Below are positions 5,549-54,754 of a DNA stretch of 64,000 nt, one piece after another. The notes beneath the pieces were generated by a model. It saw only the letters and a program-made list of their open reading frames with translations. It searched no databases and was not told the DNA's origin. The stretch's first letter is position 1; the number at the start of each line of letters is the position of its first letter. Both the position numbers and the translations under genes were made by a program. The stretch comes from Sporomusaceae bacterium (GTDB lineage: Bacteria; Bacillota; Negativicutes; UBA1444). The stretch spans positions 186,001 through 250,000 of the forward strand of contig JAHDPL010000007.1 of the NCBI GenBank assembly GCA_018434355.1. The letters run 5' to 3'.

Positions 5549-5962
5549 ATGGCGGTAACAGGTGTAAATTATTCAGCAGCAGCATCTTCGAACAACACTT
5601 CATCGACAAAGACCAGTCAGGATCTCGGCAAAGATGATTTTTTAAATCTTTTGGTTACTCAGCTGAAGTACCAAGATCCGTTGAGTCCGATGGAAGACAA
5701 AGAGTTTATTTCGCAAATGGCTCAGTTCACCAGTCTGGAACAGATGAAAAACATGAATAACTCTGTTCAGATCACACAGGCTACATCGTTCATCGGCAAA
5801 CAGGTTACCTGGGCAGATAGTCAGGGCAATGAAATGTCTGGAGTTGTAAAATCAGTCAAGATTGTAAATGGCGAAGCCCGTGTATTGGTTGGCGATCAAA
5901 CGCTGGAGTTGAAACAGATACTGACTGTTAGTGAAGTCGCCACAACCCCTGCGGTTGCATAA
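5549..5962 (+). CDS. flgD: Flagellar hook capping protein FlgD, short form
   Basis: FlgD caps the growing hook and guides FlgE subunits into place outside the cell. The N-terminal export and capping region is clear (DDFLNLLVTQLKYQDPLSPM, then EFISQMAQFTSLEQM). The protein has only 137 residues and lacks the C-terminal FLG/Tudor-like domains of the enterobacterial form, as in B. subtilis. AAGGAGGTGAG precedes the ATG. It stands directly before the other hook genes. Confidence 0.95.
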   Translation: MAVTGVNYSAAASSNNTSSTKTSQDLGKDDFLNLLVTQLKYQDPLSPMEDKEFISQMAQFTSLEQMKNMNNSVQITQATSFIGKQVTWADSQGNEMSGVVKSVKIVNGEARVLVGDQTLELKQILTVSEVATTPAVA

Positions 5963-5981: not shown

Positions 5982-6368
5982 ATGACCGACAATCGGGTGT
6001 ATTTTTCTAACCAGCCGATTCAGCCGATTCAATCGCCAATAGTGAAACCACGTTCGGCCGGAATGGCGAACACGATCGGCAATTTCGACCAAGTCTTGAA
6101 CCAGACGATGGGCGGCGTGAAATTTTCCCAACACGCATCGCAGCGTCTCCAGACCAGAAACATCAATCTGAGCAATGAACAGATGAATCAATTGAAATCA
6201 GCCGTAGACAAGGCGGCGCAAAAGGGAGCAAGGGAATCGTTGATTTTGATGAACAACGATTTGGCGCTTGTAGTGAGTGTGACCAACAGGACGGTCATCA
6301 CGGCCATGGATGGCTCAAGTATCAGGGACAATGTATTCACAAACATTGACAGCGCCGTGATCGTTTAG
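5982..6368 (+). CDS. Flagellar operon protein, TIGR02530 family
   Basis: Small conserved protein (128 residues) found between flgD and flgE in many Firmicutes and often named only flagellar operon protein. The family core is visible as VKFSQHASQRLQTRNI and then LVVSVTNRTVITAMDG near the C terminus. There is no signal peptide or membrane helix. Its function is not settled. The location suggests a role in hook assembly or regulation. A CGGAGGTGA ribosome site precedes the ATG. Confidence 0.88.
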   Translation: MTDNRVYFSNQPIQPIQSPIVKPRSAGMANTIGNFDQVLNQTMGGVKFSQHASQRLQTRNINLSNEQMNQLKSAVDKAAQKGARESLILMNNDLALVVSVTNRTVITAMDGSSIRDNVFTNIDSAVIV

Positions 6369-6439
6369 GACTGGACCTCTCAAGGGAGTCCCCGGCTGCC
6401 GAAGGATTGAAGCAGTCGCACGACGCGTGATCCAGGGCC
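6368..6439 (+). promoter_or_regulatory. Candidate structured RNA in the flgE 5' leader
   Basis: The 99-base gap before flgE can fold into several stems by eye. CTGGA (6371-6375) pairs with TCCAG (6431-6435), with an extra GG/CC pair outside. CGGCTGC (6393-6399) pairs with GCAGTCG (6412-6418) around a 12-base loop. CACG (6419-6422) pairs with CGTG (6426-6429). A further hairpin GGAC/GTCC (6373-6391) competes with the closing stem. I do not recognise the class, and it lacks the conserved core of GEMM-type c-di-GMP riboswitches. It could be a regulatory leader or an mRNA processing site. Confidence 0.35.
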
Positions 6440-6467
6440 ATTTATTTATGAGGGAGGTCATTTCACT

Positions 6468-8795
6468 ATGATGCGTTCAATGTTCTCCGGCGTTGCCGGT
6501 CTGCGTAATCATCAGACCGCTATGGACGTTATCGGAGCCAACATCTCCAACGTCAACACCGTCGGTTATAAAGGCGGACGATCCAATTTTTCCGATGTGA
6601 TCAGCCAGACCATGCAGGGAGCTGCTTCTGCAACCGGTACCCGCGGCGGTACCAATCCGATCCAGATCGGCCTTGGCATGGGCCTGGCCGCGGTTGACAC
6701 GATCATGACCAGCGGTAGCTATCAACCGACAGGCAAACAGACTGACCTGGCAATTCAAAATCAAGGTTTCTTCATCGTCTCTGACGGTCTCAACCAGTAT
6801 TTCACCCGTGCCGGCAATTTCGACTTTGACGGAACCGGCAACTATGTGGTTCCCGGGACCGGTTTGAAAGTAATGGGCTGGCTGGGTGCTGACGGTGTGG
6901 TCGATACCAGCGGTCAGGTCACCGCTATCACGATCCCGTCAGGGATAACGCTTCCGGCAGTGGCGACTACGTCAATGACGTTTATCAACAATCTTTCCGG
7001 GACGGATACGCCAGGTTCTTCGGCACAGACCTCGTTGGAAGTGTATGACTCACTTGGCCGTGTTCAGACGCTGCAACAAAAATTCATCAAAACAGATGAT
7101 TTGACACGTACCTGGCTGACCAAAGCGAGCCTGACCGACGAAACGATTGGTGTTTCGAATCCGCTCACGGAAATCACCTTCGATTCGGCCGGTAAGGTGA
7201 ATACGGTAAAGCAAGTGGTGCTACATGAAGTGCCAAGCAAAAACCTGATTTTTGCTGATGGCCTGCAACTAAATAATACGTTGGCGAGCACCAATACGAT
7301 AACGGGAGTTACGTTGTATGATGCGGCCGGCGCAGCACAAACCTATAGTATCACCTTTACCAATACAGGTGCGTCAGCATGGAACTATACAATTACAGAC
7401 ACATTAGGGGCGCCGGTGCAAACCGGTACGGCGTCCTATGCAGCAGGGCAGTATTCTTTCACTACAGTAGTCGGAACCTTACCGGAATTGACGTTGGGCA
7501 ATTCTATTGGTATTGCCCCCGCGGCCGGAGCAGACCGTGTTGCAATTGCTTCAACCGGGTTGCCGCAGAGCAACATCCGATTCGCATCCGGAATGCAGCT
7601 CGATTCAACTGCGGGTAATATCCATGATGTTGGGTTTACTCTTTATGATGTGGACGGACAAGCCCACAATTACAACATGAGGATCACAACGGCTGCCGGA
7701 CCTTTGTATTCCTACAATATTTATGACGCAGCCGATACGACTTTCTCAACTTCACTTGGCGATGGGACGATAACAGCAGCAATTGCTGCCGGCGATCCGA
7801 ACTATTTTACACCTGGAACAGCCTTTAATCCCTGGGGGACTGGCGGAATCACTCCAATTAGTGTTAACGGCGCTATACCAGCAGCAGGAAGCTTTGTTGG
7901 TACAGTTCCAACAGTATCGCCCGGCACGTCAAACATCGCGATCCCAACACTCCAGATGGACAATACGACTGGATCTGTTCATCAATCTTACTACACGGTG
8001 TTTGACAATGCTCTCACTCCACATGTCTTGAAAATGGAGTTCACGCAGACTGCCGACAATACTTGGTCGTATAAACTTAACGAAGCTGGTGTGACAAATG
8101 CGACGTCATTGCTTTCCGGCACAGTAAAATGGGATACAACTTTAGTGCCTCCCGCGTACGTTTATACTCCTGCATTTAACAATAGTACATTTGATGTAGG
8201 GACTGGCGCGGCCAAAACAACAATCACGTTAGGAAACCCGACAACTGGCGTTGCTCCGGTCGGCACAGCTTTCATCGCTGCCTGTAATCCGACGTATGGA
8301 ACGGCTGCCACTGTCAGCCCGGTAACATTCACTGCGCCGGGAGCAACCCAGTCAACCATCGCGATGGACGTCAGCGCGATTACCCAGTACGGTGGTTCCA
8401 CCACAGTCCAGGCGAACAATCAAAACGGTAATGCTTCAGGTGCGCTTGATACGGTATCCGTCGATACTAGCGGCATGATCGTCGGCAAATTCAGCAATGG
8501 TAAAACGCAGAATCTGGCTAGGGTCGCCCTGGCGACATTCACTAACAATGCCGGTTTGACCCGTGTCGGAGATACTTTGTTTGCCGCATCCAACAACTCC
8601 GGTAATCCGGCCATCGGTACCAGCGGTACCGGTGGACGAGGCACACTGACTCCCGGATCGCTGGAAATGTCCAATATCGATCTGGCCGATCAGTTCAGCA
8701 AGATGATCATCACCCAACGTGGATTCCAGGCCAACTCCAAAATCATCACCACTTCCGATACCATGCTGGAAGAGCTTGTGAATCTGAAACGTTAA
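6468..8795 (+). CDS. flgE: Flagellar hook protein FlgE, enlarged
   Basis: Hook subunit exported through the type III gate and assembled outside the cell. The N terminus (MFSGVAGLRNHQTAMDVIGA, then ISNVNTVGYK) and the C terminus (MIITQRGFQANSKIITTSD) are the D0/D1 coiled-coil parts of all axial proteins. At 775 residues it is far longer than the ~264 of B. subtilis or ~400 of Salmonella. The extra length lies in the surface-exposed middle (about 170-640), which looks like four diverged copies of one module with the pattern LYDxxG...Y...W.Y. GAGGGAGG precedes two adjacent ATGs (6468 and 6471). Confidence 0.96.
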   Translation: MMRSMFSGVAGLRNHQTAMDVIGANISNVNTVGYKGGRSNFSDVISQTMQGAASATGTRGGTNPIQIGLGMGLAAVDTIMTSGSYQPTGKQTDLAIQNQGFFIVSDGLNQYFTRAGNFDFDGTGNYVVPGTGLKVMGWLGADGVVDTSGQVTAITIPSGITLPAVATTSMTFINNLSGTDTPGSSAQTSLEVYDSLGRVQTLQQKFIKTDDLTRTWLTKASLTDETIGVSNPLTEITFDSAGKVNTVKQVVLHEVPSKNLIFADGLQLNNTLASTNTITGVTLYDAAGAAQTYSITFTNTGASAWNYTITDTLGAPVQTGTASYAAGQYSFTTVVGTLPELTLGNSIGIAPAAGADRVAIASTGLPQSNIRFASGMQLDSTAGNIHDVGFTLYDVDGQAHNYNMRITTAAGPLYSYNIYDAADTTFSTSLGDGTITAAIAAGDPNYFTPGTAFNPWGTGGITPISVNGAIPAAGSFVGTVPTVSPGTSNIAIPTLQMDNTTGSVHQSYYTVFDNALTPHVLKMEFTQTADNTWSYKLNEAGVTNATSLLSGTVKWDTTLVPPAYVYTPAFNNSTFDVGTGAAKTTITLGNPTTGVAPVGTAFIAACNPTYGTAATVSPVTFTAPGATQSTIAMDVSAITQYGGSTTVQANNQNGNASGALDTVSVDTSGMIVGKFSNGKTQNLARVALATFTNNAGLTRVGDTLFAASNNSGNPAIGTSGTGGRGTLTPGSLEMSNIDLADQFSKMIITQRGFQANSKIITTSDTMLEELVNLKR

Positions 8796-54580: not shown

Positions 54581-54754
54581 GGACAGAGTAGAGGCGCAAC
54601 CTGCAATAGTATGGCTGACGAGATCGTGCATCGATGACGCAGCAGGAAAGGGCATGTTGCCGAAGCGTTGATACAGGCACACTGTATGGCGCTGGTTTCA
54701 TGTCGAACAGGCATGTGACTGTCACCAAGCGATTGGTGGAGCGCTATCTCATCC
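54581..54754 (+). promoter_or_regulatory. Lysine riboswitch (L box) aptamer
   Basis: Conserved L-box elements occur in order: GAGTAGAGGCGC (J1/2 region, from 54586), AGTA near 54608, GGAAAGGGC then GTTGCCGAAGC (54655-54666), GGCGCTGG, and GGTGGAGCGCTATCTC (54735-54750). P1 pairs GGA..GAGTAG (54581-54591) with CTATCTCATCC (54744-54754). Bound lysine should stabilise P1. The right arm of P1 (54745-54754) can instead pair with GGTGAGATA (54815-54823) of the terminator stem. So lysine leads to termination and lack of lysine to read-through into dapB. A small CCCTT/AAGGG hairpin (54570-54582) overlaps P1. Confidence 0.95.

Follow-up and report, generated by a model that had tools for sequence, protein, structure and literature searches.

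What occupies the gap ahead of the hook gene in this flagellar operon, and could it act on the translation of that gene? In the 64,000-nt stretch of DNA analyzed here (the window), the hook gene flgE was assigned to 6468-8795 (+) from the list of open reading frames and a profile match, and its ribosome-binding site, GAGGGAGGUC, lies at 6450-6459 (+). The gene upstream, named flgD in a preliminary description of this locus, turned out to be flg_new (TIGR02530/PF12611; 5982-6368, +), with a TIGR02530 match of 118.4 bits at a cut-off of 83.2, and flgD (5549-5962) is situated one gene further upstream. The gap between flg_new and flgE comprises 99 nt (6369-6467).

The preliminary description had placed an unassigned structured RNA at 6368-6439, drawn as a closing stem around inner hairpins, with a rival hairpin at 6373-6391 competing as in a switch. 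Folded alone, this stretch reached a minimum free energy of -22.2 kcal/mol (z +0.60), and 135 of 200 shuffled sequences did as well; the folding energy was therefore dropped as evidence, and what had been put forward initially was insufficient by itself. The fold that is conserved in relatives scores -16.8 within the same stretch compared to -22.2 for the most stable one, and it becomes dominant (hairpin 1 at about 0.7, hairpin 2 at about 0.97) only after truncation of the stretch at 6420.

Conservation and covariation

The gene flg_new was present in 77 of 150 relatives, and the loci returned first, which stem from 29 other genomes, all carried the same two-hairpin sequence right after the flg_new stop codon. 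RNAalifold, supplied with no structure and run on 30 rows including the window (out of 79 candidate rows), predicted two hairpins, with changes on both sides in eight of nine pairs. As alignments fitted to a model lean towards the structure of that model, it is this run that provides the independent prediction. The covariance model R1, built from the same 30 rows, matched 78 of 85 sources, namely the window and 84 flg_new loci. The seven loci without a match are extra flg_new copies from second clusters, all belonging to one family (f12), and in each of these genomes the other flg_new is accompanied by the element. Behind these seven paralogues, which are found in second flagellar clusters (L072, L078, L080, L082-L085), the gap is mostly short and holds no element.

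Among 77 distinct flgE-type copies picked only for their adjacency to flg_new, 98.0% of cells were paired, and 190 cells were changed on both sides compared to 45 in shuffled alignments. A set of 88 flgE and flgG copies, hand-chosen for variety, had 94.1% of cells paired (30-48% in slid controls) and both-side changes in 13 of 14 pairs; the 240 cells changed on both sides compare to 73.5 in shuffles, with none of 500 shuffles as high. For 93 copies from multiple phyla, taken from 92 of 118 loci found by pattern, 232 such cells were counted compared to 71 in shuffles, a result that bears mainly on hairpin 2 since the scan pattern largely fixes hairpin 1. Covariation thus establishes the fold, and it is nearly certain that the RNA element is real. 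The intergenic regions of relatives had been named as the place to check the original candidate, and both conservation and covariation were found there.

Anatomy of the element

Hairpin 1 (6368-6391, +), derived from RNAalifold and the pair counts, starts at the final nucleotide of the flg_new stop codon. Its lower stem (6368-6372/6387-6391) is followed by an asymmetric internal loop, in which GGA (6373-6375) faces one purine (6386), and by an inner stem (6376-6378/6383-6385) with the loop 6379-6382; the inner stem reads CC/GG or, in 25 of 253 parsed copies, CU/AG. Hairpin 2 (6393-6418, +), for which the loop letters complement RNAalifold and the pair counts, is composed of a stem (6393-6399/6412-6418) and a 12-nt loop (6400-6411) containing three GA dinucleotides at 4-nt spacing. 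The form of this loop is YGA-NYGA-YNGA-N, from which the window deviates by one letter. The unpaired letters were found as GGA in 251 and as GA-GA-GA in 247 of the 253 parsed copies, about a third of which had been fetched by a pattern demanding these very letters. In the loop of hairpin 2, GA stands at either side, which by its letters fits a kink-turn or k-loop; tandem G.A pairs of the kink-loop kind could form from these GA letters. From the loop end to the start codon, the median distance is 38 nt.

A structured gap before flgE was hence confirmed, with the hairpins in the first half of its 99 nt, but not the architecture that had been drawn for it. Within 6368-6439, the two conserved hairpins end at 6418 and the remainder (6419-6439) lies outside them. 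In 5 of 68 hook loci, compared to 6.3 expected from shuffled linkers, the 5' arm and the 3' linker share a run of at least six pairs, as the closing stem would need, and the rival hairpin 6373-6391 can be formed in 2 of 68 hook loci.

Position in flagellar operons

A search of the window's own genome with R1 revealed two strong copies, the hook-gene copy and a second one between flgF and flgG (G000:C23:90115-90184, E 3.0e-10). When 47 further matches were examined, this second copy included, 36 were situated directly before flgG; of the other 11, two precede flgE, one precedes a FlgE-like paralogue and eight have no recognised flagellar gene nearby. One of these eight (L157, 501-565) lies near a non-flagellar gene and has an intact hairpin 1 and a broken hairpin 2, perhaps as a relic. 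Weak model matches off recognised flagellar genes (L161-L166 and L168; E 8.6e-4 to 6e-3) were treated as chance. For 128 instances found by exact pattern (loci L175-L342, with some genomes represented twice), the start of a gene of the FlgE/FlgG family lay within 400 nt downstream in 123; of the remaining five, two lie ahead of divergent FlgE-like genes, one lies ahead of flagellin and two are near the end of the stretch. The gene upstream of 283 model matches, among which some genomes are repeated, was flg_new in 187 and flgF in 56 cases.

In six Negativicutes genomes (L059, L064-L068), the element still follows flg_new, although the next gene is one other than flgE. Here, the genes that follow are flbD/swrD-like, fliL and fliM-like (names by sequence reading), and in most of these loci a terminator-like hairpin comes after the element, which perhaps also serves flg_new itself. 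An Armatimonadetes genome (G534) contains four copies, at flagellin, between FliJ-like and FliK-like genes, between flg_new and a FliM-like gene, and between FlgM-like and FlgN-like genes (L374 1561 and 4204, L375 1732-1802, L296 4169; names again by sequence reading), an arrangement that looks like a regulon. In Geobacter-type genomes, extra copies were observed beside a small repetitive protein, MSIS...DFQDISTALKSGDMTDAQQAY... (L376 1245-1316 (-), L380 1556-1628).

Distribution and relation to known RNA families

The model R2, built from flgE- and flgG-type copies, was run on an even sample of 398 genomes from the phylum and matched 268 of them at a threshold of E 0.001. A scan of named GTDB representatives with the exact pattern returned at least 118 stretches from at least 10 further phyla, a lower bound that rests on record titles and is biased by a pattern fixing part of hairpin 1. 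Bacillota among the matches listed include Moorella, Sporomusa, Brevibacillus, Paenibacillus, Cohnella, Halanaerobium and Bacillus timonensis. Also listed are Geobacter and other Desulfuromonadales, Bdellovibrio-like bacteria, Phycisphaeraceae, Hydrogenedentota, Calditrichota, KSB1, Zixibacteria, Latescibacteria, Omnitrophota, Cloacimonadota, Gemmatimonadetes, Neomarinimicrobiota, Myxococcota, Armatimonadetes and one Actinomycetota MAG. The model matched all 40 multi-phylum pattern genomes searched, mostly once each, which indicates that it is specific. A model search of the flgA-flgJ region of E. coli K-12 detected no element (best E 1.9); the flgF-flgG gap of E. coli (L343, 6059-6229) measures 171 nt and contains a palindromic repeat, without the element.

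Scans against Rfam 15 assigned no family at the gathering cut-off over the element in the window, and nothing above cut-off on it in 11 Negativicutes, 10 phylum and 18 multi-phylum loci. Membership of any Rfam family was accordingly rejected for these copies, and the element is new to Rfam, in keeping with the preliminary description, which had called this RNA unassigned. The sole match on the element below cut-off, in the 11 Negativicutes loci, was TtnuCD16 with 22.5 bits at a cut-off of 75, and the aptamer models of c-di-GMP riboswitch classes I and II remained unmatched in the whole-library scans. In the open-access literature searched, including passages of PMC6429828, PMC8632094 and PMC4033198, no account of the element was recognised, which may differ for print elsewhere.

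Several known systems invite comparison. RNA leaders of motility genes are also formed by the c-di-GMP riboswitches, from which the element differs in its lack of an Rfam match and in its place between operon genes before flgE or flgG. The Termite-flg and flg-Rhizobiales motifs of Rfam, which are structured RNAs near flagellar genes, differ likewise, as the copies tested match no Rfam model. With the CsrA-FliW-flagellin system the element would share, as proposed here, a structured leader by which a flagellar polymer gene is controlled post-transcriptionally; it is, however, another RNA, stands before other genes (hook and distal rod) and is not tied to the presence of CsrA. Overall, the finding is far wider than the preliminary description had held, as it extends to flgG copies, to many phyla and to a tight link with flg_new.

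Co-occurrence with flg_new and CsrA

In the same 398 genomes, flg_new was detected in 280, FliG in 328 and CsrA in 281. Among the 328 FliG-bearing genomes, 263 of the 278 with flg_new carried the element, compared to 1 of 50 without flg_new (Fisher p 1e-43, computed without phylogenetic correction). A local unfiltered search in the 15 flg_new genomes without an R2 match revealed a divergent element right after flg_new in each of them (E 2e-7 to 0.45), the weakest four being convincing mainly by their place. Conversely, three genomes (G413, G473 and G485) have the element after flgF without flg_new; two of them are incomplete (84% and 79%) and also without FliG, and G485 (95% complete), with a flgG copy and no detected flg_new, is either a real exception or a gap. 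The multi-phylum genomes with the element contained flg_new in 40 of 40 cases, 37 of them over the family cut-off, and the control genomes in 0 of 14 (FliG in 4 of 14). As element and flg_new are adjacent, a single deletion could remove both; the absence of flgG copies as well, where flg_new is missing, argues against the simple loss of one neighboring pair. This co-occurrence makes flg_new a strong lead as the putative partner of the element.

CsrA shows no such relation. The element was present in 228 of 278 FliG-bearing genomes with CsrA and in 36 of 50 without (Fisher p 0.12), and 39 of the 268 element-bearing genomes had no CsrA match, so that CsrA is disfavored and was rejected as an obligatory partner.

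The flg_new protein

Three residues (H51, R55 and K81) are invariant and R59 is nearly so in 63 flg_new proteins. An AlphaFold model (mean pLDDT 83.7, from residue 51 mostly about 90 or more) consists of helices at 34-42, 50-58 and 65-80 followed by four strands. Foldseek returned no match for this model at E 0.001 or better. The structural alignment (VIA-align) was led by HigB2 (Z 5.9), ParE, RelE1, RelE and YafQ, with pantothenate kinases interspersed, and toxins of the HigB2, ParE, RelE or YafQ type filled 14 of the top 17 rows; the best HigB2/ParE/RelE rows, at Z 5.0-5.9, are weak since they stay under 8. DUF4258 matched 38 of the 63 members weakly (best 0.0016) through its start, the HAxxR stretch, and a PDB sequence search gave no relative (best E 2.9). 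Pfam side matches below cut-off, for instance PF07951, PF19014 and PF04830, were taken as chance. The RelE/ParE/HigB toxins and DUF4258 are the closest comparison for flg_new, by the leading structural rows and the weak DUF4258 matches, but the scores are weak and the flg_new gene is embedded in flagellar operons. These comparisons tentatively point to a RelE/ParE-like fold, and suggest, equally tentatively, a RelE-like and possibly RNA-binding protein.

No paper on the function of flg_new was recognised in the open-access literature searched, and absence there does not mean absence in print. FlgV (BB0268) is another broadly conserved and little-known protein of flagellar operons that was once thought to bind RNA and does not; it has two predicted membrane helices and is encoded beside flhF/flhG (PMC11607428). 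FlgV, set apart by these features, was dropped as the identity of flg_new.

A predicted alternative pairing with the flgE ribosome-binding site

When the ribosome-binding site was included in the fold of the window, the most stable structure paired 6374-6381 (GACCUCUC), an arm of hairpin 1, with 6452-6459 (GGGAGGUC). In this predicted alternative state, hairpin 1 would thus find its rival in the flgE ribosome-binding site. The fraction of arm-site pairing was 0.334 in 63 Negativicutes hook copies compared to 0.084 with a shuffled site, and 0.167 compared to 0.053 in 95 other hook copies, whereas 46 flgG copies (0.052 compared to 0.030) showed no clear pairing. From this difference, the flgE copies look bistable and the flgG copies do not. 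The letter after GGAGGU was C in 44, U in 15, A in 7 and G in 1 of the 67 hook sites with this motif, and A in 11 and U in 5 flgG copies, the permutation test on this letter taking no account of relatedness. The copies at flgE and flgG may therefore differ in their mode of action. The switch proposed at the outset survives in this other form, in which the arm of hairpin 1 is complementary to the ribosome-binding site beyond shuffled controls; the version with the hairpin 6373-6391 does not.

A possible mechanism and its rivals

The reading that we favor, to which we give an even chance, is that flg_new, encoded just upstream, binds a cis-acting two-hairpin element and controls the translation of hook and rod genes. 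The stretch 6368-6418 would be transcribed within the flagellar operon, as a cis-acting mRNA element between flg_new and flgE, and both of its hairpins would be bound by the flg_new protein. At flgE, a bound hairpin 1 would stay closed and its arm would be kept off the ribosome-binding site, so that hook translation would rise with free flg_new; at flgG, bound flg_new would act by its position beside the ribosome site. Hook and distal rod would thereby be made by the cell in response to one and the same signal. Several observations count against this reading: the flgG copy of G485 without a detected flg_new, the seven f12 paralogues without an element, the six genomes in which flgE does not follow, and the weak fold match with its Z under 8 and the empty Foldseek search. 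Moreover, with no clear pairing to the ribosome site in flgG copies, one mechanism may not cover both genes.

A layout of two compact hairpins whose loops are conserved is typical of ligand or protein binding in general, and the element might be recognised by a different factor, be it a small ligand or a general RNA-binding protein, while flg_new merely co-travels in the operon. The element adjoins flg_new in most genomes, so co-loss could be passive, and the G485 copy would fit as well; however, passive co-loss of one neighboring pair does not predict the loss of the distant flgG copies, which are also missing from FliG-bearing genomes without flg_new (any copy: 1 of 50), and we regard this explanation as rather unlikely. 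The partner might also cut instead of only binding: if flg_new were a RelE-like endoribonuclease acting at the element, the processing site could set separate stabilities for the flgE and flgG messages. The toxin rows heading the structural comparison, the invariant basic residues and the location between two operon genes are consistent with cleavage, but the fold score is tentative, which leaves this a distinctly unlikely option.

Subunits encoded downstream of such gaps are needed in many copies, and hairpins in these gaps might do no more than stabilize the message that follows or insulate it, with no specific factor involved. This is very improbable, as conservation of the unpaired letters equals that of the stems, the pattern-selected third of the parsed copies notwithstanding, and flagellated genomes without flg_new are also without the element. 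In several bacteria, flagellin translation is under the control of CsrA, and the almost invariant GGA in hairpin 1 could suggest a CsrA site as in flagellin leaders. But this GGA is part of the asymmetric internal loop, none is required in the loop of hairpin 2, and the element is retained in CsrA-less genomes as noted above, so that the chance of a CsrA site appears close to negligible.

A broader version of the flg_new reading, in which a RelE/DUF4258-like, RNA-binding or RNA-cutting flg_new and the element together form an ancient, bacteria-wide post-transcriptional checkpoint for the synthesis of rod and hook that is absent in model organisms such as E. coli and has become a regulon in some lineages, is held tentatively, at somewhat below an even chance. 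The ordered assembly of rod and hook is textbook material, and its control has mostly been studied in E. coli and Salmonella. If true, a control layer missing from the best-known flagellar models would be added, and flg_new, a protein of unknown function nearly always paired with the element, would gain a testable role as part of a new RNA-protein pair.

Apart from the element, the window contains a lysine riboswitch at 54581-54754 (+), which was matched with 104.4 bits.
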